From Terriglobia bacterium (GTDB lineage: Bacteria > Acidobacteriota > Terriglobia > Bryobacterales > Bryobacteraceae), in contig JAJPJN010000071.1 of assembly GCA_021324185.1 (NCBI GenBank), positions 1 to 47,616 on the forward strand: a DNA stretch of 47,616 nucleotides. The letters run 5' to 3'. A program made the position numbers and the translations under genes. The notes below the pieces were generated by a model. That model was given only the letters and a program-made list of their open reading frames with translations, did no database searches and had not been told where the DNA came from. Of the stretch, positions 5,742 through 25,597 are shown in pieces. How positions within the stretch are numbered: the first letter of the stretch is position 1; the number at the start of each line of letters is the position of its first letter.

Positions 5742-8480
5742 ATGAAAAGATACGTTTACTCGTTTGGCGGGGGAACCGCGGACGGCGACGGCAAGATGCG
5801 CGACATTCTGGGAGGCAAAGGGGCCGGGCTCGCCGAAATGAGCAAGGCCGGCGTGCCGGTTCCGCCGGGATTCACCATTTCTACCGAGGTCTGCAACCTG
5901 TTTTTCGAGAACGATCACAAAGTGCCTAAACAGGTGGATGAAGAGATTCACCAGGCGCTCGATAAGCTCGAAAAGCAAATGGGTAAGAAGCTGGGCGACC
6001 CGAATGACCCGCTGCTGTTGAGCGTGCGTTCCGGCGCGAAGTTCTCCATGCCCGGGATGATGAATACCATTCTGAATCTCGGACTCAACGATGAAACCAC
6101 CGAAGGGCTGGCAAAGAAAACCGGCAACCCGCGTTTTGCGTATGACTGCTATCGCCGCTTTATTCAGATGTTCGGCGAAGTTGCGCTGCATATCGACATG
6201 GCAAAGTTCGACCATATCTTCGATACGCGCAAAGCGAAGGTGAAGGCGAAGCTGGATACCGATCTTACTGCCGAGGATCTGAAAGCGATTATCGCGGATT
6301 ACAAGAAGCTGGTGAAGAAAGAAACCGGGCGCGAATTTCCGCAGGATGCACATGAGCAGCTCATGCTCGCCCGCGATGCAGTCTTCAATTCCTGGAACAC
6401 GCCGAAGGCCATTTACTACCGCCGCATGGAAAAGATTCCGGATTCCATCGGCACAGCCGCCAATGTGCAGGCCATGGTGTTCGGCAATATGGGAAACCAC
6501 TCGGGCACCGGTGTGGGCTTTACGCGCAATCCGTCGACGGGCGAAAAAGTCTTCTATGGCGAGTTCCTCGTGAATGCGCAAGGCGAAGATGTTGTTGCCG
6601 GTATTCGCACGCCGCAGCCCATTGCCGAACTCGAGCAGGTGATGCCCGAAGCCTACGCGCAACTGCGCGACATCACTTCGAATCTGGAAAAGCATTATCG
6701 CGATGTGCAGGATTTCGAGTTCACCATCGAAGAAGGCAAGCTGTACATGCTGCAGACGCGCAACGGCAAACGGACCGGCCCGGCTGCTGTTCGCGTTGCG
6801 GTGGACATGGTGGAAGAAGGCTTGATTTCGAAAGAAGAAGCGGTTCAGCGCGTGGCGCCGAATCAGCTCGATCAACTCCTTCATCCGGTGCTCGATCCGG
6901 CCATGCGCAAAGGCTTACAGAAGATAGCGGCCGGCTTGCCCGCCTCGCCGGGCGCCGCTGTCGGACGCGCGGCGTTTTCTTCGGAAGATGCCGTCAGGCT
7001 TTCCACTGAAGGCCCGGTTATTTTGGTTCGCAAGGAAACCACGCCTGATGACATTCACGGCATGGATGTGTCGAAGGGGATTTTAACGGCGGTGGGCGGT
7101 TTGACTAGTCACGCGGCTGTTGTGGCGCGCGGCATGGGGCGGCCTTGCGTGGTGGGCGCTTCGTCGCTGGCTGTGGATGAAGCGAAAAAGCAGGCCACGA
7201 TTCTTTTCGAAGGACACAAAACTGTTTTGAAAGAAGGCGACTGGATTTCGCTCGACGGCACGCAGGGCGAAGTCTATCTCGGGCAATGCAAGACCAACGA
7301 GCCCGATCCGAAATCGCACTATTTCGCCACCTTCATGCAATGGGCAGACGAGTTCCGCGGCGATTTCGGCGTACGCGCGAATGCGGATATCCCACGCGAC
7401 GCCAAAGCGGCCCGGGTGTTCGGCGCCGAAGGCATTGGGCTATGCCGTACCGAGCACATGTTCTTTGCCGAAGATCGCATCCCGCACATGCAGGCCATGA
7501 TTCTTGCTCGTGACGAGAAGACGCGCAAGAACGCCCTCAAAAAGCTGCTTCCGATGCAGCGCAAAGATTTCGCCGGCTTGTTCGAAGCGATGGACGGGTT
7601 CCCAGTAGTAATTCGAACGCTTGATCCGCCGCTGCACGAATTTTTGCCGAAGCGGGAAAACGTCATGGTGGATCTCGCCAAGCTGCCTTATGCCAGCGCC
7701 AAAGAAAAGAAGGAAATGGCGCAGACCTATGGAGCCAGCGTTGGTGAATTAAAGAAGCATCTGCCGGAGCTGCTCAAGCGCGTGGAAGAGCTGCATGAGT
7801 TCAATCCGATGCTGGGCCATCGCGGCTGCCGGCTCGGCATCACGTATCCCGAAGTTACGGAAATGCAAGCCCGGGCCATCTTCGAAGCCGCCGTTCAGGT
7901 GGCGAAGAAGGGCAAGAAGGTGATTCCCGAGGTGATGATTCCGCTGGTTGGGAGCGTGAAGGAACTCGAGAATCAAAAGCAACTCGTGGTTCGCGTTGCT
8001 AATGAAGTGCTCGAAGACGCCGGGATGAAGGATCTGAAATACTACGTGGGCACCATGATCGAGATTCCCCGTGCTGCCATGACCGCAGACGAGATCGCCC
8101 GCGAAGCCGAATTCTTCAGCTTTGGAACGAACGATCTGACGCAGACCACGATGGGTTTGTCGCGCGACGACTACACGAAATTTTCCCGGCAGTACGAAGA
8201 TCTCAAAATCTTCAAAGCGGATCCGTTTGCCGTGCTCGATCAGGACGGTGTCGGGAAGGTGATTGAGATGGCGGTAAAGCTCGGCCGCAAAACTCGTCCG
8301 GATCTCGAGGTCGGCATCTGCGGCGAACATGGCGGGGAGCCGAGTTCCGTGGAATTCTGCTATCGCATAGGGATGAATTACGTTTCGTGCTCGCCGTATC
8401 GCGTGCCGATAGCGCGTCTGGCTGCGGCGCAGGCGGCGATTAGCGGCCATCGCAAAGCCGAAGCGCAGCGCACGGCGTGA
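5742..8480 (+). CDS. ppdK: Pyruvate, phosphate dikinase
   Basis: A 912-residue PPDK. It interconverts pyruvate, ATP and phosphate with phosphoenolpyruvate, AMP and pyrophosphate, linking glycolysis and gluconeogenesis in the cytoplasm. The N-terminal ATP-grasp domain begins with YSFGGGTADGDGKMRDILGGKGAGLAEM. The swivelling phosphohistidine domain has GGLTSHAAVVARG with the catalytic His at about 457, and the TIM-barrel PEP domain ends with GICGEHGG, catalytic Cys near 860. All three domains are intact. The start follows glyS after only two bases, without a strong ribosome site. A long antisense open frame lies under the first third and is a composition artefact. Confidence 0.98.
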   Translation: MKRYVYSFGGGTADGDGKMRDILGGKGAGLAEMSKAGVPVPPGFTISTEVCNLFFENDHKVPKQVDEEIHQALDKLEKQMGKKLGDPNDPLLLSVRSGAKFSMPGMMNTILNLGLNDETTEGLAKKTGNPRFAYDCYRRFIQMFGEVALHIDMAKFDHIFDTRKAKVKAKLDTDLTAEDLKAIIADYKKLVKKETGREFPQDAHEQLMLARDAVFNSWNTPKAIYYRRMEKIPDSIGTAANVQAMVFGNMGNHSGTGVGFTRNPSTGEKVFYGEFLVNAQGEDVVAGIRTPQPIAELEQVMPEAYAQLRDITSNLEKHYRDVQDFEFTIEEGKLYMLQTRNGKRTGPAAVRVAVDMVEEGLISKEEAVQRVAPNQLDQLLHPVLDPAMRKGLQKIAAGLPASPGAAVGRAAFSSEDAVRLSTEGPVILVRKETTPDDIHGMDVSKGILTAVGGLTSHAAVVARGMGRPCVVGASSLAVDEAKKQATILFEGHKTVLKEGDWISLDGTQGEVYLGQCKTNEPDPKSHYFATFMQWADEFRGDFGVRANADIPRDAKAARVFGAEGIGLCRTEHMFFAEDRIPHMQAMILARDEKTRKNALKKLLPMQRKDFAGLFEAMDGFPVVIRTLDPPLHEFLPKRENVMVDLAKLPYASAKEKKEMAQTYGASVGELKKHLPELLKRVEELHEFNPMLGHRGCRLGITYPEVTEMQARAIFEAAVQVAKKGKKVIPEVMIPLVGSVKELENQKQLVVRVANEVLEDAGMKDLKYYVGTMIEIPRAAMTADEIAREAEFFSFGTNDLTQTTMGLSRDDYTKFSRQYEDLKIFKADPFAVLDQDGVGKVIEMAVKLGRKTRPDLEVGICGEHGGEPSSVEFCYRIGMNYVSCSPYRVPIARLAAAQAAISGHRKAEAQRTA

Positions 8481-10048
8481 ACATTTCCGAAGTACGCGGC
8501 AAACGGTGGGACGCTGTCATCGTGGGCGCGGGCCACAACGGCCTGACTTGTGCCGCCTATCTGGCGCGTGCTGGGCAGCGTGTTCTCGTTCTCGAATCCC
8601 GCGCTCGCATTGGCGGCGCATGCACTATTGAAGAACCATGGCCGGGCGTTCGTATGTCGCCATGCGCCTACCTCTGCGGATTGCTGCATCCGCTCGTCAT
8701 TGAGGAACTGCAACTGCCGGCACGCGGCTTTTCCTGGTCGCCTGCAATAAATGGCCTGTTCGTTCCGTTCGAAGACGGCTCCAGCATTCAGCTTTACGAT
8801 GACGATGCGCTGTGCGAACAAGAGATTCGCAGATTTTCAGAGCGCGATGTTCCAGGCTGGCGTGCCATGAACGATGTCATCCGCCGCCTGCGCGACGCGA
8901 TTCGACCACCCGGCCCTCGCGATATGTGGATCGGCGAAGCGCCTACGCGCGAACAACTGGAAGAACGGATCGGCAACGATGAGGAAGCGCGCCACCTTCT
9001 GTTCGATTGGTCCATGGCCGAGTTTGCCGGGCGCTATCTCTCCGATGAGCGGCTGCAGATCGCGTACTTGGGCCAAGGCGTTATCGGGACAAATGCCAGC
9101 CCGTTTGATCCAGGCACTGCTTTCATTCACTTTCACCATTCGTGCGGCCGCATGGACGGATTGCCGGGATTGTGGGGCTACGTGAAGGGCGGTATGGGTA
9201 TGGTTTCGTTCCTGATTGCGGATGCAGCGCGGGAAGCGGGGGCTGTGATTGCGTCGGGAATGCCGGTGGGGCAGATCGTGCCGCGTGAAGGCGTTGTGCT
9301 CGAAGGTGGTGAAAAGATCGGCGCCCGCGTAGTCATTTCGAACGCTGATCCGAGGACCACGCTGAACCTGCTCGGCAGCGCGGCAGATCCTGCGTGGCGT
9401 CAAAAAGTGGAATCGATTCCGATCGAGGGCTGCACATTGAAGCTGAATGTATGGCTGCGCGAGCTGCCGAATTTTCGCGCGCGCCCCGGTATCCGGGAGC
9501 CGCATCACTTCGCCCAGATCAATACACCGCTGACGAAAGACGAGTGGAAGGCAGGCTATCACGCAGCTCGCTCCGGCCGCTTGCCGGACCGCCTCTGGAC
9601 GGAGCTTTATTTTCAAAGCGTGCACGACTCTTCCGTCGCTCCGCCGGGCACGCACACCATGTCGCTGTTTTCTCAATACGTGCCATATCAATTTGCCGGC
9701 GGAGAAAATTGGGATGATCGCCGCGAGGCTGCAAGAGAACTTGCGCTCAATTCACTCGCTCGCTTCTGCAGCAACATCCCAGATGCAGTCATTAACGCCG
9801 AAGCGCTCGGGCCGCCCGATATTGAAAACCATGTCGGCCTCACCGGGGGCCACATCTTTCAGGGCGAATGTCTGCCCGCGTATATGTGGAGCAATCGCCT
9901 GAGAGCGCGCACGCCCATGCCTGGCGTCTATCTTTGCGGCGCGTGTACGCACCCCGGCGGCAGCGTGATCGCCATAAATGGCCGCAACGCCGCTATGGCC
10001 GTGCTGGCGGATATGTTGGACGCCAACGCCGCTTCAGCCGCCGATTGA
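8477..10048 (+). CDS. FAD-dependent oxidoreductase, phytoene-desaturase/PYROXD2-like
   Basis: A 523-residue flavoprotein. The N-terminal dinucleotide-binding motif GAGHNGLTCAAYLARAG, followed by VLVLESRARIGGACTIEE, is the FAD site of the amine oxidase/phytoene desaturase superfamily. The C-terminal YLCGACTHPGGSVIAINGRNA is the matching FAD-closing motif. This layout fits the PYROXD2/CrtI-like group, whose bacterial members mostly have no known substrate. The GTG start lies in GTGA with the ppdK stop, implying translational coupling. No carotenoid genes are nearby. Its 3' end overlaps the convergent FixH-like gene by 56 bases. Confidence 0.85.
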   Translation: MNISEVRGKRWDAVIVGAGHNGLTCAAYLARAGQRVLVLESRARIGGACTIEEPWPGVRMSPCAYLCGLLHPLVIEELQLPARGFSWSPAINGLFVPFEDGSSIQLYDDDALCEQEIRRFSERDVPGWRAMNDVIRRLRDAIRPPGPRDMWIGEAPTREQLEERIGNDEEARHLLFDWSMAEFAGRYLSDERLQIAYLGQGVIGTNASPFDPGTAFIHFHHSCGRMDGLPGLWGYVKGGMGMVSFLIADAAREAGAVIASGMPVGQIVPREGVVLEGGEKIGARVVISNADPRTTLNLLGSAADPAWRQKVESIPIEGCTLKLNVWLRELPNFRARPGIREPHHFAQINTPLTKDEWKAGYHAARSGRLPDRLWTELYFQSVHDSSVAPPGTHTMSLFSQYVPYQFAGGENWDDRREAARELALNSLARFCSNIPDAVINAEALGPPDIENHVGLTGGHIFQGECLPAYMWSNRLRARTPMPGVYLCGACTHPGGSVIAINGRNAAMAVLADMLDANAASAAD

Positions 10049-10517
10049 TGATAAACAACACAATCGCAACCGGCACAAACACGATTAGGGGCCATTTTTC
10101 TTTCATGGGCGGCGCCGCAGGCCCGACCGCAAGCTGCGCCAAAACGGTGATGTGTGCATTTTGCGCATCGATATCGGTCGTGAACTTCCAATTTCCCTCA
10201 CTTGGAACCGTAATCGCAGCGCCATAAAGAAGTTTGTTCGTAGCCTTGGCGTGCGTGGCAGGCGCAACCACTTCTGTAATCCTGCCGCCCTCGTCTTTTT
10301 CGAACCGGAGCATCACGTGGGCGTCTGGAACATTGCTGTGGCCGGCCGCTTTCTGAACCATAACGCTCAGATTCGATTGCCCGACCGTCAGGGGCGCGTG
10401 ATCTGCGAACACTGTCACATCAAACGGATCTGCGCGCTGATGCAACAGTACGACGGATCCATCGCCGAATGCAGGCAATGCGAACAGTGCCGCAACAATG
10501 ACAGGCCAGAGTAGCAT
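9993..10517 (-). CDS. FixH/YtkA-like membrane-anchored periplasmic protein
   Basis: A 174-residue protein read from the ATG at 10517, which shares one base with the stop of the CtaG-ferredoxin gene. Longer upstream extension in frame would read through that gene and is rejected. It has a signal peptide (MLLWPVIVAALFALPAFG) and a beta-rich middle of about 110 residues with DPFDVTVFADHAPLTVGQSNLSVMVQ. A transmembrane helix near the C-terminus (WPLIVFVPVAIVLFII) and a basic tail follow. The beta domain resembles FixH/YtkA-type proteins linked to copper or oxidase assembly. The match is by pattern only and the name is tentative. Position after CtaG and the NosR-like ferredoxin supports a role in oxidase maturation. 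Confidence 0.6.
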   Translation of the reverse strand: MLLWPVIVAALFALPAFGDGSVVLLHQRADPFDVTVFADHAPLTVGQSNLSVMVQKAAGHSNVPDAHVMLRFEKDEGGRITEVVAPATHAKATNKLLYGAAITVPSEGNWKFTTDIDAQNAHITVLAQLAVGPAAPPMKEKWPLIVFVPVAIVLFIINRRLKRRWRPTYPPARP

Positions 10518-12565
10518 CACATCAGTCCCCGCATCTGCATCGGTTGAAACAAAATCCAAACTCCCGCAGCGTACAATCCACACGCAACCACCGCCGAGGG
10601 CAGCAGAGTGGTCCACTTCTGCGCGATTCGCCACGCGAGATACAACGTGAACAAAAGCCCGCATCCGAGTATCAGCAGTTGCACTGAAATCTGAGGCCCT
10701 GCAGCGTGGAACAGAAGATGAGCCAGCCACATGGCAGATCCGAGTGGCACGAGCGTAAACGCAAAGCGATGGGCCAGCTCACTGCTGCTCAAAACCCGCA
10801 ACGCGGTAAAGACCAGCAGCGGGAGCAATGCGGCGCCGGCCAGGATGAAAGCGGCCATCCTCCACAAGTTCCACATCATGATGGGATGGACCATGGCAGC
10901 GGCGTTGACAAATGCGCCGAATACGATGACGAGTGCCAGCACCGCCCAATCAGTCCGCTTCGACAGCCTTCCGATCGATGAGCGGTACGGATCCTTCAAA
11001 ATAGTCGCGGCGGGGATCACCGGAAACACTGCCACATTGCCAGTAGGACACGCCTTCACGCAATCGAGGCAGAAGGTGCAATCGAGATTGCCCTCTTTTT
11101 TCGGCTGAAACAGATACAACTCGCAGCCGCGTGCATGCTCGTTGCCGCGGATGCAATCGTAGCTCGCGCAGCTTTTGCAAACCCGGGGATTCCGCACGCG
11201 CACTTCGCGCGGCGAAAGCAGCGAAGTGATGAAATGAAACTGCCCGATAGGACAAACATATTTGCAGAAGCTCGCACCGCGAAAAACACCATCAACGATC
11301 AACGCCGCAATAAAGTATCCGGCGATAATCCACGCCGTCAGCCAGGGGCTGTTCCATAATGCGAACGCTTCGTAGAGCCATAAATACAGCACGAGGAGTG
11401 CCGCGGGCACCCATTTATTGCGGAGCGCAGCGGGCCAACGCAGCTTGGCGGGGAAAACTTTTCGGCCCAGATCGCGAACCAGCATGAACGGGCACGCCAT
11501 GCAAAACAGATTTCCGATAGTAAGCAGCGCCACAACAGACAAAAAGCGCCAATAGATCCAAGGCAGTACGCCAGCGAGATTCAAAGGGGCGATTTGCGTA
11601 CCGAAGAATCCGTCCGCCATCACGGCAACTGCCACACTCAGCATCAGGACCTGCGCGGGTCTGCGAAGGCGAGGCAGCCAGGCCGTTTTTGCTGGTGCAG
11701 GCACCACGGGCCGCAGCCGCACCCGCACCATCTTCTCGGCCGGTTTGCGCAGCTTCGGTCCGGCCAGCAGGCGCATGGCGAAGACGAATGCGGGAATCAA
11801 ATAGACCAGGGAGCCTGGTACCCACATAATCAGACCGGCGAGCGTCTGATCGTCTTGTGCGCTCATGCTGCTCGCGTGAAGGGCTTCATAACTCGGATAG
11901 AGCACGCGGCCGGAAAACACAAATGCAGCCGAAAGGCCTGTGTTTAGCAGATCCGCAGCCAGCAAATAAGGAATGACGGCCCATTCCGGCCAGAGCGATT
12001 TGGCAGGCATCGGGCGCACGACCGCCCACCAGAAGAAAATGCCGGTCCAGAAAAAGCTCGCATGCTGCAAACCGTGAACCCAGCTTGAGCGCAGCGCAGC
12101 TTCGTAGAACGGCGGCAGATGCCAGAAAATCGTGCTGAAGGCGAATAAAACGAAAGCTACCGGCGGCGCGATGAGAAAACGGAACAAGCGCCGAAGCGTA
12201 GGCCAGCTCAAAAACGGGCCCAGGCCTCCCCTGACAAAATGTTTCGGCAGACCTCGCAGCAAAGGAAGCGTGGGATGGCCCAGCAGCAGCAACGGCGGCA
12301 CCAGCATCATCAGCAGCAAGTGCTGCGCCATATGCGCTGCCAAAAAGAAGTGATCGAAGGCGTCCAGCGGAGATTCAGTTGCGATGAACAGCAGAAGGAG
12401 CCCGGAAAGAAACGCAGTGAGGCGCTCTCCATCGTGCTCACCGCGGACAATTTTCCGGCCGCGCAGCCAGCCACGTATGTACACGGCCGCTGCCGCCAGC
12501 AACAAGGCTAGCGAAAATGGGCGGATGTCCCAGGATGTGAGCGCTGCGGCCCCGAATGACTCCAC
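10517..12565 (-). CDS. CtaG (caa3 assembly) fused to NosR/NapH-type polyferredoxin membrane protein
   Basis: A 682-residue polytopic membrane protein with two parts. Residues 1 to about 290 match Caa3_CtaG proteins, which help assemble caa3 oxidase: many helices with HMAQHLLLMMLVPPLLLLG and FFWTGIFFWWAVVRPMP. From about 305 the protein becomes a NosR/NapH/CcoG-type domain. It has CMACPFMLVRDLGRK, CKYVCPIGQFHF, then CKSCASYDC and CTFCLDCVKACPTGN, enough cysteines for two [4Fe-4S] clusters, and then further helices. Start is a GTG at 12565; no clear ribosome site is seen. CtaG and such ferredoxin proteins are normally separate. The fusion suggests that electron transfer and copper or haem handling are joined during oxidase assembly. 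The function is inferred. Confidence 0.8.
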   Translation of the reverse strand: MESFGAAALTSWDIRPFSLALLLAAAAVYIRGWLRGRKIVRGEHDGERLTAFLSGLLLLFIATESPLDAFDHFFLAAHMAQHLLLMMLVPPLLLLGHPTLPLLRGLPKHFVRGGLGPFLSWPTLRRLFRFLIAPPVAFVLFAFSTIFWHLPPFYEAALRSSWVHGLQHASFFWTGIFFWWAVVRPMPAKSLWPEWAVIPYLLAADLLNTGLSAAFVFSGRVLYPSYEALHASSMSAQDDQTLAGLIMWVPGSLVYLIPAFVFAMRLLAGPKLRKPAEKMVRVRLRPVVPAPAKTAWLPRLRRPAQVLMLSVAVAVMADGFFGTQIAPLNLAGVLPWIYWRFLSVVALLTIGNLFCMACPFMLVRDLGRKVFPAKLRWPAALRNKWVPAALLVLYLWLYEAFALWNSPWLTAWIIAGYFIAALIVDGVFRGASFCKYVCPIGQFHFITSLLSPREVRVRNPRVCKSCASYDCIRGNEHARGCELYLFQPKKEGNLDCTFCLDCVKACPTGNVAVFPVIPAATILKDPYRSSIGRLSKRTDWAVLALVIVFGAFVNAAAMVHPIMMWNLWRMAAFILAGAALLPLLVFTALRVLSSSELAHRFAFTLVPLGSAMWLAHLLFHAAGPQISVQLLILGCGLLFTLYLAWRIAQKWTTLLPSAVVACGLYAAGVWILFQPMQMRGLM

Positions 12566-12726
12566 TGGTCTATTGCTTCAGTTTCACATTGATTCAACAC
12601 GAAGTAACTATGTATTAAATCCGGGCCGATCACATAAGCACTCAACCCAAATTTGCTGCCACTGTGGAGTGTTTATGATTTCAAACTATCCTTCCGAGTA
12701 GCGTCGCAAGTTCATCGATTACACGG

Positions 12727-14256
12727 TTACTCGTAGAAAATGGCCGGGGAAGTGCGTACTGGGGTGCCCGTTGCCGGCGGCATGACCACAGCCAAATCCC
12801 GCGGTAGTTTGTTTTCGCGCTTATCCGACGGCACCGCCGGCTTCTTGCTCTTCGGAGTAAGTGTCTGTAAGAATGACACCAATGCCTCCACTTCTGCGGG
12901 GCTCAGCTTTTCACCATATGCCGGCATGTTACCGCCGCCTTGGATCACCTGGCGGATCAATTCCGGTCTGGTCAATCGCGTCGCCACCGAATCCAAGGCC
13001 GGGCCGCGCTCACCGCCCAGCCCGCCAAGGGCGTGACAGTTGCGGCACTGTTTGTTCTGAAACACGATCGCGCCATGCAGCTCGAGCGGGGTTCTTCCCT
13101 TCAGAAACTGCGCCGGAATAGGATCACTGCTCCAGGCGTCCATCTTCGGCGACCACGGCGATGTTTCGCCCATATAAGCTAAAACGCCAACCACCAACAG
13201 AATCAGAACAACGGACAGTACCGCCACTGGTCTTCTGCGCGCGCTCTTTTCTCCGGTGCCGGAAATAAACGGCAGGACCAGCAGAAAAAGTATGATCAGC
13301 GTGGGCGCCGCAAACAGAACGATGACTTCCATCCAATCGGGCAGCAGAGCAAAAGCCGCGAAAATCGCAAGGAAATAAAAGTCGGGGCGCGGGTTTGTAT
13401 CGACCAAAGTCGGATTGGGAACCCCCACGGGCCCTTTGGGACCGAAGATCAACGCGCAGCCCAAAATTCCGATGATGACGAGGGCGGCAAAAATAAGGTC
13501 CTTACCGATTGCATGGGGCACAAAGGGTACACCTTCTTTGCGAAGGATGTCGGCGTACTCGGCATCGTAAGTGGATTTGTGCACGGGATGGCCGGGGCGC
13601 GGGTATTCATTAATGCCCTTGGTAAGCACCAGACGCAAATGCATGCTGACAATGGCAATAATCAGTCCAGGAATGATGAAGACGTGCAGCGTGAAAAACC
13701 GCGATAATGTTTCGCCGGCAATAATAGGCCCCGCCAGCAGAACATGCACAAGCTGCGCCCCGATCAGCGGCACGCGCCCGGTGATTTCGGCGCCAATAGT
13801 CAAACCCCAGTACGCGTCTTGATCGAAACGCATCACCTGCCCGGTAAACGCCATAGCCAGCGTGCACAGCAGCAGAAAAACACCGCTGATCCAGGTCAAC
13901 TCGCGCGGATATTTGTAAGCGCCGAACAGAAACACCTGAATCATGTGCGCTGTCATAATCGCCACCATGAAGTTCGATCCCCAATAATGAACGGCGCGGA
14001 GGTACCAGCCCCAGAACTGCGCGTGGTTCAGGTATTGCAAGCTCGTGAATGCTTCATTCGTAGAGGGGATATAAACAAACGCCAGACACGCGCCCGAAAT
14101 GATCTGAATAATGAAGCACAGCAGCGTGGCACTTCCGAATACGTAGAACCAACTGCCGGCGCTGGCAGGCACTTCATGTCCAGCCGTCGATGCATAGAGC
14201 GCGGTCAGGTGCAGCCTGTCATCCAGCCAAACCGCGCATTTTCGTAACCAGTTCAT
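12727..14256 (-). CDS. Cytochrome b of a bc-type complex fused to C-terminal cytochrome c
   Basis: A 509-residue protein from the ATG at 14256, chosen because it sits 14 bases after the Rieske stop and begins the family opening NWLRKCAVWLDDR. An in-frame start 60 bases upstream would overlap the Rieske gene. Haem b ligands are His90/His104 and His191/His206. The first pair is separated by 13 residues and the second by 14, the spacing of b6f/Gram-positive cytochromes rather than mitochondrial bc1. The Qo motif PEWY is replaced by PDFY at about 291-294. After eight or so helices the chain ends in a cytochrome c domain with CRNCH at 404-408. It oxidises quinol, probably menaquinol, and passes electrons on through the Rieske protein and its own haem c. 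Confidence 0.92.
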   Translation of the reverse strand: MNWLRKCAVWLDDRLHLTALYASTAGHEVPASAGSWFYVFGSATLLCFIIQIISGACLAFVYIPSTNEAFTSLQYLNHAQFWGWYLRAVHYWGSNFMVAIMTAHMIQVFLFGAYKYPRELTWISGVFLLLCTLAMAFTGQVMRFDQDAYWGLTIGAEITGRVPLIGAQLVHVLLAGPIIAGETLSRFFTLHVFIIPGLIIAIVSMHLRLVLTKGINEYPRPGHPVHKSTYDAEYADILRKEGVPFVPHAIGKDLIFAALVIIGILGCALIFGPKGPVGVPNPTLVDTNPRPDFYFLAIFAAFALLPDWMEVIVLFAAPTLIILFLLVLPFISGTGEKSARRRPVAVLSVVLILLVVGVLAYMGETSPWSPKMDAWSSDPIPAQFLKGRTPLELHGAIVFQNKQCRNCHALGGLGGERGPALDSVATRLTRPELIRQVIQGGGNMPAYGEKLSPAEVEALVSFLQTLTPKSKKPAVPSDKRENKLPRDLAVVMPPATGTPVRTSPAIFYE

Positions 14257-14270
14257 TTGGTCGATCTTCG

Positions 14271-14810
14271 CTATACGGGATTGGAGAGCGTCGGCATCTC
14301 GCCGCCTTTTACCCAAAGCTGGCCATTTTCCACTTTGTAGTCATACTGGAACAGCCCGCGCGGTGGTGGTCCGGCGGCGCGTGCGCCGTCTTCGTAATAG
14401 GCGCCGCCATGGCAAGGGCACAAAAACAGGCCGGATTCCGGGAACCAGCGCACCGGGCACCCAAGATGGGTGCAGTTGATCGCAAACACTTGAAATTGAT
14501 TTCCCTTCAGCCGCCGCACCCAGCACGGAATGTCGGCGGTCTGTCCGTCCCAGGGGCGTGTAAAAGGATTGCGATAACTGGCGATGCGCGTGGCGTTTTC
14601 GGGAAAGCCGTCGAGTGGCCCCAGCGATATCCAACTGCGCGGGTCCTTTCGTTCCACGAAGCTCGAAAAGACAAACCCGATCAGTGGAACTGCAAGCAAG
14701 AGGCCGGCGGCGACATTAAGAGCCACGCCCGCAGTAAATAGCCAATCGCGGCGCGATGGGTTCAGCGTTTTATCTTTCCCTTTGTCTTCTTCCCTGCCGC
14801 TTGCTGTCAT
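14271..14810 (-). CDS. Rieske [2Fe-2S] protein of the bc complex
   Basis: A 179-residue Rieske protein. The cluster ligands are in CTHLGCP (Cys113, His115) and CPCHGG (Cys131, His134), with the disulphide pair Cys118/Cys133 present. An N-terminal SRRDWLFTAG at about 19-28, followed by one hydrophobic helix, fits the twin-arginine signal anchor usual for Rieske proteins. It takes electrons from quinol at the Qo site of the cytochrome b encoded next. The start overlaps the upstream dihaem cytochrome stop in ATGA. Confidence 0.96.
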   Translation of the reverse strand: MTASGREEDKGKDKTLNPSRRDWLFTAGVALNVAAGLLLAVPLIGFVFSSFVERKDPRSWISLGPLDGFPENATRIASYRNPFTRPWDGQTADIPCWVRRLKGNQFQVFAINCTHLGCPVRWFPESGLFLCPCHGGAYYEDGARAAGPPPRGLFQYDYKVENGQLWVKGGEMPTLSNPV

Positions 14811-15628
14811 TTCACGCCTCGCTGGCTGCTGCCGCCCTTATTACCTTCGTTCTTTTGAAATCGCGGGCTCCCCGGACCGTTCCCGCTCCCTTCGTTGCCC
14901 TTGACCATGGGGTCCGATTGAGCGGCGCCGCTCGCGTTCACATTTGCGTTCTGCACGTTGGGAGTAACCGGCCTTTTCGATGCAAGAAATGCGACCAAGT
15001 CTGAGATGTCCTGATCCGTTAATGGATGGCCCGCGTTGAGCATTCGAAAGTCAGGCATTCCGAGATCGGGCCGCCCCTGGATGATTGCAGTTCTCAAGAG
15101 CTGATCGTCGACAAGCGTAAGAAATGCTGCGTCGGTTACCGGCCCGATAGCGGCTCCCTGGCCGTGGCAAGCAAAGCAATCTTTCACGAACAATTTCCTG
15201 CCGCGATCGGGATCGCCGGTTGCGCTCGCGTAATAGGAAGGGACCGGCGCTCCGTTGAAATTCACCGGCTTTGCCCAGTGGCTTTCGATCCCATCCACCA
15301 AGGCTGCAACCTGCTTGTCCGTGAGCGGCCCACCCTGGCTCAGCGCCCAGGCGGGCATGGCTGTTCCGGGGCGCCCGTTCGTAATCACTTTCTGCAGCTC
15401 CGCCTTCGGCACGATGGCGAGATAGAGCGGATCGTTCAACGGCCTGCCAGGTCCATTCTTACCGTCAGGCCCGTGGCATCCTTGACAGTTCTCTCTATAT
15501 AAAGTCCCGAAATCCATGATGTCGCGTCTGTTGACCTCTTGCTGCTTCGGCTTGCCGGGCGGTTCGCAACCGGTGGCGAGCAGGAGAATGCACGCACCGG
15601 CTATCAGCCCGCTGTGCCGGAGAATCAT
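14807..15628 (-). CDS. Dihaem c-type cytochrome lipoprotein
   Basis: A 273-residue protein with a lipoprotein signal peptide (LLLATGC, Cys21). Two cytochrome c domains follow, with CQGCH at 48-52 and CFACH at 151-155, each trailed by MPAW or MPDF and candidate Met ligands. The last 50 residues are a low-complexity tail rich in Asn, Gly and Ser. It is probably anchored on the periplasmic face and carries electrons from the bc complex to the oxidase. It is translationally coupled on both sides through ATGA overlaps. Confidence 0.92.
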   Translation of the reverse strand: MILRHSGLIAGACILLLATGCEPPGKPKQQEVNRRDIMDFGTLYRENCQGCHGPDGKNGPGRPLNDPLYLAIVPKAELQKVITNGRPGTAMPAWALSQGGPLTDKQVAALVDGIESHWAKPVNFNGAPVPSYYASATGDPDRGRKLFVKDCFACHGQGAAIGPVTDAAFLTLVDDQLLRTAIIQGRPDLGMPDFRMLNAGHPLTDQDISDLVAFLASKRPVTPNVQNANVNASGAAQSDPMVKGNEGSGNGPGSPRFQKNEGNKGGSSQRGVK

Positions 15629-16494
15629 CCGTGCTTTCCCTCATCTGGCTGATGCAGTCCCGGCGCCTCCACAAACGCGCGTTCCGCAAGGGTCCAGGTT
15701 TGCATGGTACGAATGCTGGTGCTCCTGGCAATGAAATAACCGCCGACCAGGCCGAACCCGAGTTGCGCCACGACGAACCAAGGCCAATTGATGCGCTCGT
15801 TCATCACGGGATTGATGACGCTTAGAGTTGTCGCCACTAAGCCGCTCCAGAAGAGCGGCATCAGGATGCCGGCCCAAAAGGGCGCGTACTTCGGAAACAT
15901 CGGCAGGATCACAGCATAGACGATACCCACCAAAATGGATATGATCCCGTGGCCGATGAGTGCCGCAAAAAACGGCAGCATCTGAAAGTGCCGTAACTGT
16001 TCGACCGTCTGATCGCCCATCCCCGGAATGACTACGCCGGCCAGCAAGTTAATGGGATACCAAATGCTGTGCTGCGCGACCAGCCCGTAGAGGCACGCGA
16101 TAGCAGCCATCGCTACGCCGCCGGCCAAGCCGCCCCATAATCCGGAAGAATATGGATGAATCCGTTCCGGGATGCGAACACGGTGGCCCGATTCACCGGC
16201 TCTCAACCTCACCACGGAGCGCTGTTCTACTTGAATGGGCGCCGGGCGCAGCTCAGGATCGATGGGCACCTCTTCGTGCTCTTCGATTGGAATCACATTG
16301 TGCCACCAACCCACGGCCGCGCGAAACGTGACGATCAGTCCCACCACGCCGACAGCCCAATGCGTCACTATCCCGGCAAGAAGCAGCGTGATGCCAAATG
16401 CGATCACAAGCGGCCAGAACGTCGGCCCAGGCAGTACGATAGCGGCTTCCTGACTCCTCTCGCCCGCCTCGCCGTGATGCTCTTCATGTGTCAT
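15625..16494 (-). CDS. Membrane protein with COX subunit IV-like N-terminus and long hydrophobic C-terminus
   Basis: A 289-residue protein in the oxidase operon. The first 85 or so residues look like a small prokaryotic subunit IV: two helices (FWPLVIAFGITLLLAGIVTHWAVGVVGLIVTF) followed by WWHNVIPIEEHEEVPI. The following 180 residues contain about five more helices, with SGLWGGLAGGVAMAAIACLYGL and a helix ending in NPVMNERINWPWFVVAQLGFG. I cannot assign that part to a family. Standard subunit IV proteins are about 100 residues, so this is an unusual extension. It may link oxidase and bc complex, but that is a guess from position. Confidence 0.65.
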   Translation of the reverse strand: MTHEEHHGEAGERSQEAAIVLPGPTFWPLVIAFGITLLLAGIVTHWAVGVVGLIVTFRAAVGWWHNVIPIEEHEEVPIDPELRPAPIQVEQRSVVRLRAGESGHRVRIPERIHPYSSGLWGGLAGGVAMAAIACLYGLVAQHSIWYPINLLAGVVIPGMGDQTVEQLRHFQMLPFFAALIGHGIISILVGIVYAVILPMFPKYAPFWAGILMPLFWSGLVATTLSVINPVMNERINWPWFVVAQLGFGLVGGYFIARSTSIRTMQTWTLAERAFVEAPGLHQPDEGKHG

Positions 16495-16506
16495 CGGCCT
16501 TGTTCC

Positions 16507-17121
16507 TCAGAAGACCTTCAGCGGCAGGATATACACTACCGTGAAAACAATTACCCACACCCAATCGAAGAAGTGCCAGTACCAGGAGAGAAACTTCACT
16601 CGACGTTCCTGTGTCTGAATGGGAAACCCGAATATCGTGGTTATAAATACGATCAGCAGGAATGTCATACCTACAACCACGTGACTCGCATGCAGCCCAA
16701 CGAGCGAATAGAAGGTCGTGCCGAATAAGTTAGTCGCAATCGTCAAATGATCTTCATAGATCAGCTTGTGCCACTCTGCCCCGGTCGCATACAGAAAGTA
16801 AAGTCCGAGGAGAATAGTGACGAGCCACCAGATCTTGAATTTGCCTAAATCGTTTCTCCTGAGTGCATGTTCGGCAAAAACAATGGTTCCGCTGCTGGAC
16901 AGAAGACAGACGGTGGCGATGATCGGCATCTCCAACACATCTTTCGGATACGGCCCTGTCAAGCTCTTGCCGATGTAAATGAGATCCGCTGCCACAAACA
17001 TAGTGAACAGCGCCGTTTCGGTGATGATCAGGAAAATAACGCCGATTGTCCCGCGATCCGGCAATTTCCACTCGCGCTCCATCTGAAGCGCATCGGCAGC
17101 GATGACGTTATCTTGTGCCAT
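16507..17121 (-). CDS. coxC: Cytochrome c oxidase subunit III
   Basis: A 204-residue haem-copper oxidase subunit III of the five-helix type. The end of the chain is diagnostic: LVGLHASHVVVGMTFLLIVF, then VKFLSWYWHFFDWVWVIVFTVVYILP. It stabilises subunit I and its proton uptake path in the inner membrane. It begins 6 bases after the subunit I stop, so it is clearly in the same operon. Confidence 0.95.
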   Translation of the reverse strand: MAQDNVIAADALQMEREWKLPDRGTIGVIFLIITETALFTMFVAADLIYIGKSLTGPYPKDVLEMPIIATVCLLSSSGTIVFAEHALRRNDLGKFKIWWLVTILLGLYFLYATGAEWHKLIYEDHLTIATNLFGTTFYSLVGLHASHVVVGMTFLLIVFITTIFGFPIQTQERRVKFLSWYWHFFDWVWVIVFTVVYILPLKVF

Positions 17122-17127
17122 TTCTGC

Positions 17128-18813
17128 TTATTCGTACTTCCAGTCGGGGTCCTGCGGATGCTTCAGATCCCACAGCGGCCGGCTGCTGCGGACAACGGGC
17201 AACTTTTCAAAGTTATATTCCGGCGGGGGCGAGGTGGTGGCCCATTCGAGCGTCCATGCATCCCAGGGGTCATCGCCCGCCGGTATTCCTCTCAGCGAGG
17301 ACCTAATAATATTCCAGACAAAGCACAGTATCCCTGCCGCTTGCGGAATAACTCCTAGCGAAGCAATCAGGTTTATTGCATCCCAGCCACGGCCCGGATA
17401 GTACGTGTAGATCCGGCGTGGCATTCCTAAAAACCCGGCAAAATGCAGCGTCAGGAACGTCATATTGAAACCGATGCAAAACAGCCAGAAGTGCCATTTG
17501 CCGAGTTTCTCGTCCAGCATTTTCCCGCTGACCTTAGGAAACCAATAATACATACCCGCGAATAACCCGAACACCAGGCCGCCGACTAGCGTAAAGTGAA
17601 AATGCGCCACCACAAAATACGAATCATGTAACTGCCAGTCGAATGGCGCGACAGCCAGCATGATTCCTGTGAGGCCTGCAACCAGGAATTGCAGTAAGAA
17701 GGCGATACAGAATAATAGCGGCGTTTGCATTCGCAACTTACCGCCGTACATGGTCGCGGTCCAGTTGAAGATCTTGATGCCGGTAGGTACGCCCACCAGC
17801 ATGCTCGATGCCGCAAAGAATGTGTTCGACCACGACGTCATCCCGATAGCAAACATGTGATGTGCCCACACTCCCAAGCTGATGAAGCCGATCGCCGTGA
17901 CCGCGCCGACCATCGCCGGCCTGCCGAACAATGGTTTCCGTGAGAAGACGGGAATGACCTCGGATAAAATCGCGAACGCGGGAAAGATCAGAATATAGAC
18001 TTCGGGGTGCCCGAAGATCCAAAACAGATGCTGCCACAGAACGGCAGACCCGCCGGCCTGCGTATCGAAAAAATTCGCGCCCAGATGCCTGTCCAGCTCC
18101 AGCATGATTTGCGCGGCGGAAAGCGGCGGCAGAGCGACAAGGACTAGCCAGGCGTCTATTAACATCACCCATACAAACATCGGCATCCGGCTGAGCGTCA
18201 TGCCCGGACAGCGCATGCAGAAGGTCGTAGCGATCACATTGAGGGCGGTCACAATGCTGCCAACCCCGGAAAGCAGAACGCCCAATGCCCAATAGTCGGT
18301 TGCAGCTCCGCGCGAAAAGGCTTTTTCCGTAAGCGGTGCATAGGCAAACCAACCCACGTCGGGCGCCGAGCCGTCCCCGGAAAGCCCGCCTCCTCCGATG
18401 TAACTGAAGTAAAGCAGACATCCGCCTAACAAAAAAATCCAAAAGCCAAACGCGTTCAGGCGTGGAAAGGCCATATCGCGCGTTCCGATCATGAGCGGAA
18501 TCAAGTAAACGGAGAAACCAGCCACCATCGGCATGCCGACCAAAAACACCATCGTGGTCCCGTGCATTGTGAACAGGCGGTTAAAAGTATCCGGCCCCAC
18601 CACATGATTCAGCGGAAAGGCCAGTTGCATGCGAATGACGGAAGCCATGATGCCGGCAATCACCAGGAAAACCAATGCCGAAACAACGTACATCAGCCCC
18701 AGACGCTTGTGGTCGACAGTGGCAACCCACTTGTAAAGCGACTCCGAAAACGAAAACTCAGGCGTGAGTGCTTCGGCTTTCGGGTGTTCGAGTGGATAAT
18801 CGATGCTCGCCAT
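17128..18813 (-). CDS. coxA: Cytochrome c oxidase subunit I (A1-type haem-copper oxidase)
   Basis: A 561-residue catalytic subunit that reduces oxygen and pumps protons. Visible ligands are His84 (low-spin haem, MHGTTM), the CuB set His269 in GHPEVY with Tyr273, His318/His319, and His404/His406 in AHFHFTLVGG. Glu271 of GHPEV places it in the A1 class. The D-channel Asp is at about 113 (RDMAFPRLN) and the K-channel Lys347 is in PTGIKIFNW. In the Asn stretch following the D-channel Asp, the family NN is NA here. It starts 5 bases after subunit II. Confidence 0.98.
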   Translation of the reverse strand: MASIDYPLEHPKAEALTPEFSFSESLYKWVATVDHKRLGLMYVVSALVFLVIAGIMASVIRMQLAFPLNHVVGPDTFNRLFTMHGTTMVFLVGMPMVAGFSVYLIPLMIGTRDMAFPRLNAFGFWIFLLGGCLLYFSYIGGGGLSGDGSAPDVGWFAYAPLTEKAFSRGAATDYWALGVLLSGVGSIVTALNVIATTFCMRCPGMTLSRMPMFVWVMLIDAWLVLVALPPLSAAQIMLELDRHLGANFFDTQAGGSAVLWQHLFWIFGHPEVYILIFPAFAILSEVIPVFSRKPLFGRPAMVGAVTAIGFISLGVWAHHMFAIGMTSWSNTFFAASSMLVGVPTGIKIFNWTATMYGGKLRMQTPLLFCIAFLLQFLVAGLTGIMLAVAPFDWQLHDSYFVVAHFHFTLVGGLVFGLFAGMYYWFPKVSGKMLDEKLGKWHFWLFCIGFNMTFLTLHFAGFLGMPRRIYTYYPGRGWDAINLIASLGVIPQAAGILCFVWNIIRSSLRGIPAGDDPWDAWTLEWATTSPPPEYNFEKLPVVRSSRPLWDLKHPQDPDWKYE

Positions 18814-18818
18814 CTTGG

Positions 18819-19826
18819 TTACTTCAATGACTGCAGATAAGATACAACCTGCTCGAGTTGCTGGTCATTCAATTTCATACTGGGCATGAGACATCCCGGC
18901 TTGGCCTTTTGCGGATCATCGACCCAGGCGCGTAGATTCTTGGTGTCGTTGACGAGTACGCCAGCGGCCAGAGTCCGTCGGCTCATCAGGTGCGTGAGAT
19001 CGGGACCGAACTTCCCCACCGAGGGCGTGCCCCGGATGTCGTGACAATTCACACATGCCAGAGAACCGAAAACATTCCTGGCGTCGCTCACTTGCGGATC
19101 ATTCTCAGCCGGCCTTTGCTGCTGTTCCGTCCATGTCTTGAAATTCTCCGGCGTGTCGGCGATCACGCGTAAAAGCATCTGCGCGTGCTGCGTACCGCAA
19201 TATTCGGCGCAGTTGCCCACATAAACGCCCGGCACTCGAGGGTCAATCCACGCGTAGTTCACGCGATTCGGAATCAGATCCGTCTTGCCCGCCAGTTCCG
19301 GTATCCAAAAACTGTGGATCACATCGACACTGGTCAGTTCCAAATAAGTGGCTCGCTGGCCATCTGGCGTCGCCGGAACGTGTATTTCGTTTGCCGTGAC
19401 AATTCCATAGTCCGGATACTGCACTTCCCACCACCATTGATGTCCGATCAGCCTCACCTTGAGAGCCTTTGGCGGTGGACTTGCATTTTCAACGCCCGCA
19501 ATCACACGGGCTGAAACGCCGATCAGAACGAAAACGATCAGTATGGGAATAATTGTCCAGGCCGCTTCAATCTGGTTGCTGCCATACACCTGAGGCGGCT
19601 CTTGCGCGCTGTCGTCACTTGGCCGCCGGCGAAAGCGCCACACTGTATACACGATCAGCCCGGCGACCACCACAAAAATGACCGCCGTGACGCCGATTGT
19701 GAAAAGCGCCGCTTCGCGCTCCGCATAGCCGGGCGTACCCATCGGCTTGAAGATGTCGGTAATGCGCCGCTCTGCGACACCCGGAACTTGTACTTGAAGA
19801 TACGCGTTCAGCGCGTGCGCGAACAA
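18819..19826 (-). CDS. coxB: Cytochrome c oxidase subunit II with fused cytochrome c (caa3 type)
   Basis: A 335-residue subunit. After two membrane helices (about 41-62 and 90-110) comes the cupredoxin domain with the CuA ligands His171, Cys206, Glu208, Cys210, His214 and Met217 in CAEYCGTQHAQM. A C-terminal cytochrome c domain with CVNCH at 258-262 marks a caa3 oxidase. The start chosen is a TTG at 19826-19824 preceded by a GAGGGGG ribosome site about 10 bases upstream; an ATG at residue 29 would be an alternative. It is the first gene of the minus-strand respiratory operon, divergent from the STAS gene. Confidence 0.93.
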   Translation of the reverse strand: MFAHALNAYLQVQVPGVAERRITDIFKPMGTPGYAEREAALFTIGVTAVIFVVVAGLIVYTVWRFRRRPSDDSAQEPPQVYGSNQIEAAWTIIPILIVFVLIGVSARVIAGVENASPPPKALKVRLIGHQWWWEVQYPDYGIVTANEIHVPATPDGQRATYLELTSVDVIHSFWIPELAGKTDLIPNRVNYAWIDPRVPGVYVGNCAEYCGTQHAQMLLRVIADTPENFKTWTEQQQRPAENDPQVSDARNVFGSLACVNCHDIRGTPSVGKFGPDLTHLMSRRTLAAGVLVNDTKNLRAWVDDPQKAKPGCLMPSMKLNDQQLEQVVSYLQSLK

Positions 19827-19925
19827 GTTCGTCTTACCCCCTCTCGACGCCGAAACAAATGAGGCAACTTTCCACTTTACGACGCAACTGCGGGCAACAC
19901 AGCAGCAATTTTACTGGCCCGCGGA

Positions 19926-19952
19926 TTGCAAGCTGCCCGCTGTGTTTAGATA
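19926..19952 (+). promoter_or_regulatory. Candidate promoter of the STAS gene
   Basis: TTGCAA (19926-19931) and TAGATA (19947-19952) with a short 15-base spacer. The -10 box ends six bases before the ATG and no ribosome site is present. Confidence 0.3.
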
Positions 19953-19958
19953 CCTATT

Positions 19959-20414
19959 ATGCCTTTAGCAGTCGAGCAGCGGGAGATTGAAAACATCGTC
20001 GTTCTCGATCTGGCGGGCCGCCTGGTGGCTGGTCCGGATGCTGCCGATATGCGTCGTGTTTTCGACCACCTGCAAGCGCAGGGCAGGAACAGAATTGTCC
20101 TGAACCTGAAACATGTTGAGTACATCGATAGCACCGGCCTGGGAACATTGGTGATCGGGCACTCGGCTGCAGCCGATTCAGGCGGCGCCATGAAGCTTCT
20201 GCATCTTTCCAAACGCAGCGCGCAGCTCCTGATATTGACGAAGCTATCGACCGTGTTTGAAATTTATGACGACGAGCAGTCGGCGATCAACAGCTTTTTC
20301 CCCGAGCGCGAGATCAAGCGCTTCGACATTCTCGAATTTGTGAAGAGCCACGAGGGACAGAAGCAAAAAATCGGTTCCGAGCCAGCCTCGGAGACAAAGC
20401 CAGGCGAGAGCTAG
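19959..20414 (+). CDS. STAS-domain protein (anti-sigma factor antagonist-like)
   Basis: A 151-residue protein. Residues 1-110 form a STAS fold with VEYIDSTGLGTLVIG, in which the Ser of DSTG is the usual phosphorylation site of SpoIIAA/RsbV proteins. A C-terminal extension of about 30 charged residues (KSHEGQKQKIGSEPASETK) follows. Such proteins bind anti-sigma kinases and release sigma factors in a partner-switching pathway. No anti-sigma kinase is encoded beside it. A TAGATA element ends 6 bases before the ATG and no ribosome site is seen, so the mRNA may be leaderless. Confidence 0.85.
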   Translation: MPLAVEQREIENIVVLDLAGRLVAGPDAADMRRVFDHLQAQGRNRIVLNLKHVEYIDSTGLGTLVIGHSAAADSGGAMKLLHLSKRSAQLLILTKLSTVFEIYDDEQSAINSFFPEREIKRFDILEFVKSHEGQKQKIGSEPASETKPGES

Positions 20415-25066: not shown

Positions 25067-25597
25067 TTAGCTATCGGCGGCGCCCTCGCTCAGGTCGGGC
25101 AGATCATTCGTAGTCTGCGAATGGAGGAAAACAGATATCACCGATTCGAGTCCCTCCTGATCCTCTTCATCAAAACGGTTCAGGCTGGGGCTGTCGATGT
25201 CGAGCACGCCAAGCACTCTCCCCCAGTTCAGCAGGGGAACAACGATTTCCGAACGCGAGGCGGTGTCGCAGGCGATATGGCCGGGAAAACGGTCGACGTC
25301 CGGAACGATCAGCGTTTTCTCCTGCTCGGCGGCAGTGCCACAAGCGCCTTTCCCGAGCGGGATGCGCACGCAGGCAGGCCGCCCTTGGAAGGGACCCAGG
25401 ACCAGTTCCTCGCCTTGGGCAATGTAAAATCCCACCCAGTTCACATCCGGCAAGGTATGAAACAGCAACGCGGCTGTATTTGCCGCATTAGCCACGAAAT
25501 TCGCCTCTTCGCCGATCAGCTCCTGTAGCTGCTCGCAAATCCTTTGATAAAAAGCGGTTTTCGGCTGGGCCGGCTCAACGCGCTCTAAAGTTTTCAT
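25067..25597 (-). CDS. msrC: Free methionine-(R)-sulfoxide reductase (GAF domain)
   Basis: A 176-residue single-GAF protein. It reduces free Met-R-sulfoxide in the cytoplasm with thioredoxin. The three family cysteines are Cys76 (PACVRI), Cys86 (GKGACGTAAE) and Cys110 (PGHIACD), with the spacing of the characterised Escherichia coli enzyme. SEIVVPL and the WVGFYI segment also match. The ATG overlaps the stop of the QueG fusion in ATGA, so the two are translated together. Confidence 0.94.
   Translation of the reverse strand: MKTLERVEPAQPKTAFYQRICEQLQELIGEEANFVANAANTAALLFHTLPDVNWVGFYIAQGEELVLGPFQGRPACVRIPLGKGACGTAAEQEKTLIVPDVDRFPGHIACDTASRSEIVVPLLNWGRVLGVLDIDSPSLNRFDEEDQEGLESVISVFLHSQTTNDLPDLSEGAADS

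Follow-up and report, generated by a model that had tools for sequence, protein, structure and literature searches.

A CtaG–polyferredoxin fusion protein encoded beside caa3 oxidase genes in a Terriglobia bacterium, a candidate copper reduction and insertion factor

The window analysed here is a stretch of 47,616 nucleotides from a Terriglobia bacterium (contig JAJPJN010000071.1 of assembly GCA_021324185.1). On its minus strand lies a gene for a protein in which a CtaG-type membrane domain is joined to a second-half membrane polyferredoxin, for which we coined the label PolyFd, and directly after it a gene for a small anchored protein. An earlier note made from the letters of this DNA had described one uninterrupted frame of 682 residues with a CtaG-type first part, and a stop codon sharing one base with the next start; all of this was confirmed. 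The features of the gene pair are as follows.

10517-12565, minus strand: CtaG-polyferredoxin fusion protein, 682 amino acids, GTG start (open frame; start backed by alignment A1)
11765-12487, minus strand: Caa3_CtaG domain, residues 27-267 (Pfam, E 2.4e-57)
11681-11764, minus strand: basic linker, residues 268-295, predicted cytoplasmic (model and topology)
10520-11680, minus strand: PolyFd membrane module, residues 296-682 (alignment and profile match)
11492-11503, minus strand: CxxCP motif, C355-C358, at a predicted cytoplasmic helix end (alignment, pattern, topology)
11252-11266, minus strand: CxxxCP motif, C434-C438, on the predicted cytoplasmic side (alignment, pattern, topology)
11048-11179, minus strand: eight cysteines, C463-C506, presumed to hold two [4Fe-4S] clusters, in a predicted cytoplasmic loop (cysteine pattern)
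10706-10720, minus strand: H616xxxH620 at a predicted outer helix end, possible copper (or haem) ligands (alignment, pattern, topology)
10529-10546, minus strand: QPMQMR, residues 674-679, at the predicted periplasmic C-terminus, possible copper-binding methionines (alignment, pattern, topology)
10515-10519, minus strand: TGATG, in which the fusion stop (TGA, 10519-10517) and the next start (ATG, 10517-10515) have one base in common
9993-10517, minus strand: YtkA/CtaK-like protein, 174 amino acids, with a C-terminal hydrophobic anchor recognised by eye (sub-threshold Pfam match, family profile comparison)

The first half matched Caa3_CtaG (PF09678) over residues 27-267 with 194.5 bits, against a cut-off of 27.7, and is thus a member of that family; the caa3_CtaG equivalog model TIGR02737 gave 83.8 bits and did not reach its cut-off of 279.35. 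As in Bacillus subtilis CtaG, the domain is of full length, carries conserved His, Met and Asp residues and is encoded with caa3 genes, but here it forms the first half of a 682-residue protein. No single family in Pfam or NCBIfam spans both halves, and none claims the PolyFd half above its cut-off.

Conservation was assessed in alignment A1. Of the 21 fusions known at that point it contains 18; L014, L015 and L022, truncated by contig ends, were excluded. Eight of the 17 other fusions have their start residue in the same column as the GTG of the window. The earlier note had proposed a module with a CxxxCP motif and twin [4Fe-4S] clusters. Its motif is found in C434xxxC438P, together with eight further cysteines (C463, C466, C471, C481, C496, C499, C502 and C506); the first motif, C355xxC358P, is instead of the CxxCP type, and all Pfam Fer4 models fell below cut-off in the window protein. 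Eleven of these 12 cysteines are kept in all 18 aligned fusions, and C502 in 17. We regard PolyFd as ferredoxin-like because of this cysteine pattern and of the profile match to NapH described below. The fused CtaG half of the window protein contains no cysteine.

The source genome is in 184 contigs, and two genes might have been joined by a sequencing or assembly error. The same fusion was, however, found on 20 further contigs and in three further Acidobacteriota genomes, 23 other sequences in all. Its carriers include Acidobacteriaceae KBS 96, Edaphobacter modestus DSM 18101 and Planctomycetes bacterium Pan216, the last with a complete chromosome; others are a Myxococcales, a Deltaproteobacterium and a Verrucomicrobiota, and several records are metagenome-assembled genomes. 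With isolates and a complete chromosome among these sequences, an artefact is excluded for practical purposes. The contig scan yielded 86 relatives, of which the best 80 were kept, and it favours close relatives, since its search patterns were taken from the window protein. The fusion is genuine and conserved. It is apparently undescribed; no published account was found in the open-licence PubMed Central literature.

Two trees of PolyFd sequences placed the fused rows on one branch. In the first, from which L022 was dropped, this branch comprised 23 rows with a Shimodaira-Hasegawa-like approximate likelihood ratio test (SH-aLRT) support of 99. In the second, from which 33 of 94 rows were dropped as far, truncated or near-duplicate, it comprised 22 rows with bootstrap/SH-aLRT values of 100/99 and was present in 100% of 200 bootstrap trees. 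Closest to the fused branch in the first tree (support 85) were two Gemmatimonadota rows, L035 and L042, in which PolyFd, CtaG and YtkA-like proteins are encoded by split, adjoining genes in that order, PolyFd and CtaG being reversed relative to the fusion. A single joining event followed by descent would be the simplest account of these trees. The fusion was probably transferred between phyla later, a course that these data do not distinguish from separate later losses.

The distribution of PolyFd is sporadic. At E <= 1e-40, and with four first-look candidates scored per genome, it was detected in 15 of 396 Acidobacteriota genomes and in 26 of 399 genomes of the window's class. Open frames of 686-845 amino acids with E < 1e-100 in 14 of those 26 were taken as fused-length; the presence of the CtaG domain was confirmed in three cases, L096, L098 and L100 with phmmer and L096 with Pfam as well. 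The source genome itself (completeness estimate 96.85%) contains two further CtaG genes, both unfused according to Pfam, and five SCO1-family matches. The Cox11-type CtaG (PF04442) had no match in the fusion protein, and neither it nor CcoG had one in the source genome, where at this completeness absence is not certain. CcoG scored above its cut-off in none of the five fusion genomes checked (the source genome and G001-G004), as against three of eight other genomes. The same genome has a second oxidase operon (L003, G000:C67), in which a short unfused CtaG gene lies between Cox3 and a COX4-like gene and is followed by Rieske and cytochrome b genes.

Upstream of the fusion in the window, on the same strand, are genes for a bc complex and a caa3 oxidase, with 161 bases separating the cytochrome b gene from the fusion.

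12727-14316, minus strand: cytochrome b fused to a c-type haem domain (Pfam)
14271-14810, minus strand: Rieske protein (Pfam)
14807-15628, minus strand: cytochrome c with two haem-binding stretches (Pfam)
15625-16494, minus strand: 289-residue membrane protein with a weak, sub-threshold COX4-like N-terminus (Pfam)
16507-17121, minus strand: caa3 oxidase subunit III (Pfam)
17128-18813, minus strand: caa3 oxidase subunit I (Pfam and NCBIfam)
18819-19826, minus strand: caa3 oxidase subunit II, with a periplasmic (CuA-type) domain and a cytochrome c domain (Pfam and NCBIfam)

A survey of fused loci against caa3 operons gave the same picture. Among the 20 contig loci, 12 have about 8 kb of upstream sequence, and all 12 carry Cox2, Cox1, Cox3 and COX4-like genes upstream of the fusion on the same strand. 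The bc genes lie between the caa3 genes and the fusion in eight of them and after the fusion in L011, and none were found in the roughly 18 kb covered at L010, L012 and L020. As three of the 12 loci thus show no bc genes over that length, the link of the fusion is to the oxidase. The 289-residue protein, unassigned beyond its N-terminus, has a relative in all 12 loci. A pattern scan of positions 9900-20100 returned six promoter-like patterns against 5.0 expected, and 23 terminator-like patterns against 12.0 expected (standard deviation 3.4).

In every one of the 20 loci with sufficient downstream sequence (17 on contigs, three in genomes), the fusion is followed immediately by a YtkA-like gene. 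Its nearest possible start lies -4 to +35 bases from the fusion stop; the start nearest the PolyFd stop was taken in each case, so single gap values are uncertain. L007, where only 223 bases follow and part of a YtkA-like frame is visible, was left out of this count. The earlier note had called the small protein FixH-like. Among 18 members of the partner family, nine matched YtkA (PF13115) at E <= 0.1 (best 2e-7) and four matched FixH (PF05751; best 0.0039); the copy in the window reached 18.9 bits with YtkA, below the cut-off of 25.9, and had no match to FixH at E <= 1. On these results a FixH identity was rejected, and the protein fits YtkA/CtaK better by its sequence. Here and below, published work is cited from passages of each paper. 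Like the partner, CtaK/YtkA of B. subtilis is a small anchored extracytoplasmic protein; CtaK acts in caa3 assembly and has been linked, with Sco, to assembly of CuA (PMC13344008). CtaK is a lipoprotein, whereas the window protein has no cysteine, hence no lipobox, and has a C-terminal hydrophobic stretch instead. The YtkA-like gene overlaps an opposite-strand gene for a flavin adenine dinucleotide-dependent oxidoreductase (8477-10048) tail to tail by 56 bases, 9993-10048.

To place the PolyFd half among named families we used alignment A2, whose 66 rows are 64 of 81 PolyFd proteins and two neighbouring CtaG proteins without PolyFd. NapH/MauN (TIGR02163) was the nearest named family. It matched 64 of the 66 rows at E <= 0.01, although the window protein reached only 21.2 bits against a cut-off of 213.05. 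A profile of 31 PolyFd sequences aligned with Escherichia coli NapH over 169 columns (hhalign probability 96), a stretch that takes in the two Cys-Pro motifs as well as the region of the clusters. The C-terminal membrane module of PolyFd begins at the point where E. coli NapH stops. NosR (NF046105) matched 20 of the 66 rows at E <= 0.01 and did not match the window protein at E <= 1. Thus, of the NosR/NapH-type character that had been ascribed to the second half, the likeness to NapH was upheld, below the family's cut-off, and membership in NosR was not supported.

PolyFd also resembles CcoG/RdxA/FixG, which is likewise membrane-bound and has Cys-Pro motifs (of the CxxxCP type in the three CcoG sequences examined). 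The CcoG model TIGR02745 matched seven of the 66 rows at E <= 0.01 and gave 15.3 bits with the window protein, against a cut-off of 316.7; the PolyFd profile aligned with the three CcoG proteins over only 37 columns. PolyFd is accordingly not a member of the CcoG family. One of its motifs is CxxCP, it has extra helices with HxxxH and QPMxMR, and it is encoded with caa3 rather than cbb3 genes. The C-terminal Ig-like periplasmic domain of CcoG is missing in PolyFd, as judged from the lack of a Pfam match and from a model that is helical nearly to the C-terminus.

The fusion was modelled with AlphaFold2, giving a mean predicted local distance difference test (pLDDT) score of 88.6 and, for single-chain models that came without inter-domain error maps on the relative placement of the two halves, a predicted template modelling (pTM) score of 0.70. 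PolyFd alone gave a mean pLDDT of 86.4 and a pTM of 0.86. Linker residues 277-286 had pLDDT values below 50. With helices assigned manually on the model, the fusion is predicted to cross the membrane 16 times, seven of the helices belonging to the CtaG half, and to have both termini outside. The density of lysine and arginine agrees with this topology, being 0.150 in inside loops and 0.052 in outside loops. In sequence searches of the PDB the best E values were 0.29 for the window protein and 0.14 for the partner, and the PolyFd profile had no match at 0.1.

Conserved residues of the CtaG half are found on the predicted periplasmic side, in H78-M79-x-Q81-H82, W148-H149, H164/H168 and D239-Q240. 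As candidate metal ligands, H78, H82, H149, H164 and H168 are present in 18 of 18 fusions, D239 in 17 and D205 in 16. The predicted topology places the CtaG ligands and H616, H620, M558, M676 and M678 of PolyFd outside, and every cysteine inside. The membrane part has many conserved residues in alignment A1. HxxxH and QPMxMR were both recognised by pattern in 72 of 81 PolyFd frames. Of the remaining nine, six run off the end of a contig; the other three are variants: in L019 an internal cysteine hides HxxxH from the pattern, and L035 and L027 have RPMAMR and LPMEMR. Both motifs are also present in L096-L098, L100 and L101-L105, and neither was found in E. coli NapH or in the three CcoG proteins.

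The neighbours of PolyFd outside the fusion were examined in a census of 59 unfused loci, of which two also carry CtaG as an adjoining gene of its own. Some of the loci are short on one side, and L017 and L046 were lost from the 81 because an overlapping frame was chosen. The families of the census were built from the same loci, so that recurrence is what was observed, with names taken from Pfam. A YtkA-like gene lay within 1.5 kb in 49 of the 59 loci and SCO1 in 18, and in none was the nearest such gene 1.5-8 kb away. Three downstream families, present in 29, 12 and seven of the loci, are related to the small protein of the window; profile comparison with the partner family gave probabilities of 98.4 and 99.7 for the first two, and the third was tied to it by phmmer with the window's protein. 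In places unfused PolyFd sits between YtkA-like genes, or beside SCO1, caa3 or PCuAC genes, the last downstream of PolyFd in L077.

PolyFd is itself joined to other domains. An N-terminal CuA-like cupredoxin was found in L106 (853-2805), L107 (1489-3432), L109 (961-2814) and L110 (1201-3159); COX2 or Cupredoxin_1 exceeded its cut-off in L109 and L110 and stayed below it in L106 and L107, and the Cys/His motif was recognised by eye. L105 (1498-3372) has an N-terminal heavy-metal-binding domain (HMBD, PF19335). The N-terminal region of L101-L104 may be YtkA-like; this assignment, made by eye, is suggestive only, as HMMER gave no match, Pfam included (L103 was not scanned), and hhalign gave the L102-L104 N-termini a probability of 89.5 with the upstream YtkA profile and 10 with the partner family. 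A cupredoxin- or COX2-like gene lies next door in L106 and L108.

At 19 of the 59 loci (L045, 6785-7399; L033, 6701-7357; and 17 further loci), an unassigned, histidine-rich membrane-type protein of about 200 amino acids, 'c8' (with HWGEH and HHIEH), is encoded no more than 1.5 kb from PolyFd. The loci with 'c8' and those with SCO1 do not overlap. A distant relationship of 'c8' to CtaG was not supported (hhalign probability 2.5), and a further cluster, 'c21', on inspection resembles antisense frames of 'c8' genes. At several loci of Planctomycetota and Acidobacteriota, such as L064 (9406-16284), genes for two FG-GAP/ASPIC-type proteins and for an RnfD-like membrane protein come after those for unfused PolyFd and its partner.

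The earlier note had stated that CtaG assembles the CuB site, which merges two unrelated proteins of the same name. The established CuB factor is Cox11-type CtaG (PMC6696091), from which Caa3_CtaG is distinct (PMC13344008, PMC9145763). For Caa3_CtaG the papers differ in the passages cited: it is required for caa3 activity, with CuA, CuB or both left open (PMC13344008); a role at CuB is suggested and needs confirmation (PMC9145763); or that role is stated outright (PMC8239418). CcoG is described as a cupric reductase for cbb3 assembly with two tetranuclear [4Fe-4S] clusters, and thus as an iron-sulfur protein of oxidase copper supply (PMC7558416), properties for which PolyFd has presumptive counterparts. 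A dedicated membrane cupric reductase may be needed for oxidase loading, and Firmicutes have no CcoG homologue (PMC13344008).

We consider it somewhat more probable than otherwise that the fusion is a dedicated copper reduction and insertion factor for the adjoining caa3 oxidase, as residue conservation, predicted topology and gene company suggest. The CtaG half would hold copper at its periplasmic-side His/Met/Asp site and pass it to the oxidase. In PolyFd, two [4Fe-4S] clusters and the cysteines of CxxCP and CxxxCP would take up electrons at the cytoplasmic face, and these would cross the membrane to a periplasmic-side site formed by H616, H620, M558, M676 and M678, which would reduce Cu(II) or keep copper in the Cu(I) state. 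The YtkA-like partner may deliver or bind copper in the periplasm, or else apo-subunit II. The fusion would then work like CtaG plus CcoG, although its second half is outside the CcoG family. At the level of sequence, the fusion, its placement on a single branch, its association with caa3 genes, the residue conservation and the repeated linkage between PolyFd and copper genes are established; from these we infer the clusters, the binding of copper, cupric reduction and its direction, and a target at CuB or CuA. The proposal of a dedicated metallation machine for the neighbouring caa3 oxidase therefore stands in part, through the conserved fusion, the upstream caa3 genes in all 12 loci and the company of copper-site factors that PolyFd keeps; its CuB, FixH and NosR parts go too far or lack support.

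We further propose, tentatively and at slightly less than even probability, that PolyFd forms its own, as yet unnamed kind of transmembrane copper-site reductase family, the counterpart of CcoG for A-family oxidases. One module would have been joined in turn to CtaG, CuA-like cupredoxins, a heavy-metal-binding domain and perhaps a YtkA-like domain, and elsewhere would belong to a SCO1/YtkA/PolyFd/YtkA-like gene set. The repeated joining of PolyFd to copper domains is the main reason for reading it as a copper-site module.

Several observations weigh against the proposed role of the fusion. The low score with the CcoG model and the short alignment with CcoG proteins have been given above. Neither the fusion model nor the PolyFd-only model had a structural match in the PDB at E <= 0.001 (Foldseek). 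The cupredoxin-type proteins L106-L110 have neither HxxxH nor QPMxMR, SCO1 adjoins unfused PolyFd in only 18 of 59 loci, and Cox1 lies within 4 kb in only five. PolyFd is sparse and the source genome has its two unfused CtaG genes; caa3 oxidases in general can therefore do without the module. Both the inside-to-outside direction of the electrons and the binding of copper at H616, H620, M676 and M678 are steps that we infer. By the predicted topology the membrane separates the cysteines from the His/Met site, and no cofactor was identified between them.

PolyFd might instead be a NapH-like transmembrane carrier that reduces periplasmic thiols (disulfides of Sco or of apo-subunit II) or haem (cytochrome c), and its association with copper factors would then reflect the need for reduced CuA cysteines. 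The standing of NapH as nearest named family and the SCO1 neighbours of unfused PolyFd are consistent with this, and CuA assembly is known to need thiol reduction (PMC9145763). Such a function fits poorly, however, with a fused CtaG half devoid of cysteine, with conserved periplasmic-side residues that are His and Met and not Cys, and with a YtkA-like gene as immediate downstream neighbour of the fusion in all 20 loci with enough sequence, the typing of neighbours covering this gene; we regard it as unlikely.

An importer or channel appears less likely again. CtaG would pass on copper, which the extra C-terminal helices of PolyFd would reduce and carry into the cytosol; a comparable role has been proposed for CopD-type proteins. 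CtiP of Corynebacterium, a CopD-CtaG fusion (PMC13344008, PMC9145763), offers a precedent, ZnuABC-like transporter genes occur near several Gemmatimonadota PolyFd genes, and the membrane part has many conserved residues; but the topology model gathers the conserved His and Met residues on a single face of the membrane and not along a path, and neither CopC nor CopD had a match among the scanned genes of the window, to which this search was confined. NapH relatives act in quinol oxidation, and the operon is shared with bc and caa3 genes, so the fusion could feed electrons to either complex in respiration, in a branch linked to quinol or NAD(P)H. This we judge improbable, since three of the 12 fused loci show no bc genes over the roughly 18 kb covered, Cox1 is rare near unfused PolyFd where YtkA-like genes are frequent (five against 49 of 59), and the fused CtaG is known as an assembly factor.

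Among the known systems nearest to this protein is CtiP of Corynebacterium glutamicum, in the passages that describe it: a large CtaG fusion acting for an aa3 oxidase, with 16 predicted helices and another module thought to supply copper. There CtaG is C-terminal and its partner is CopD, whereas here CtaG is N-terminal and its partner is an iron-sulfur polyferredoxin. The mode of action of Caa3_CtaG and the need for a dedicated Cu(II) reductase are both open in recent B. subtilis work (PMC13344008). As the two activities are apparently combined in one polypeptide, also in cultured bacteria, both questions could be addressed with a single deletion and a single purified protein. If the copper-reductase function is correct, the joining of PolyFd to other copper domains would suggest that membrane copper reductases beyond CcoG form a broader family.

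Elsewhere in the window, positions 25594-27726 encode a 710-residue protein with QueG-type epoxyqueuosine reductase domains followed by TPR repeats, and this gene overlaps a GAF-domain gene (25067-25597) by four bases.

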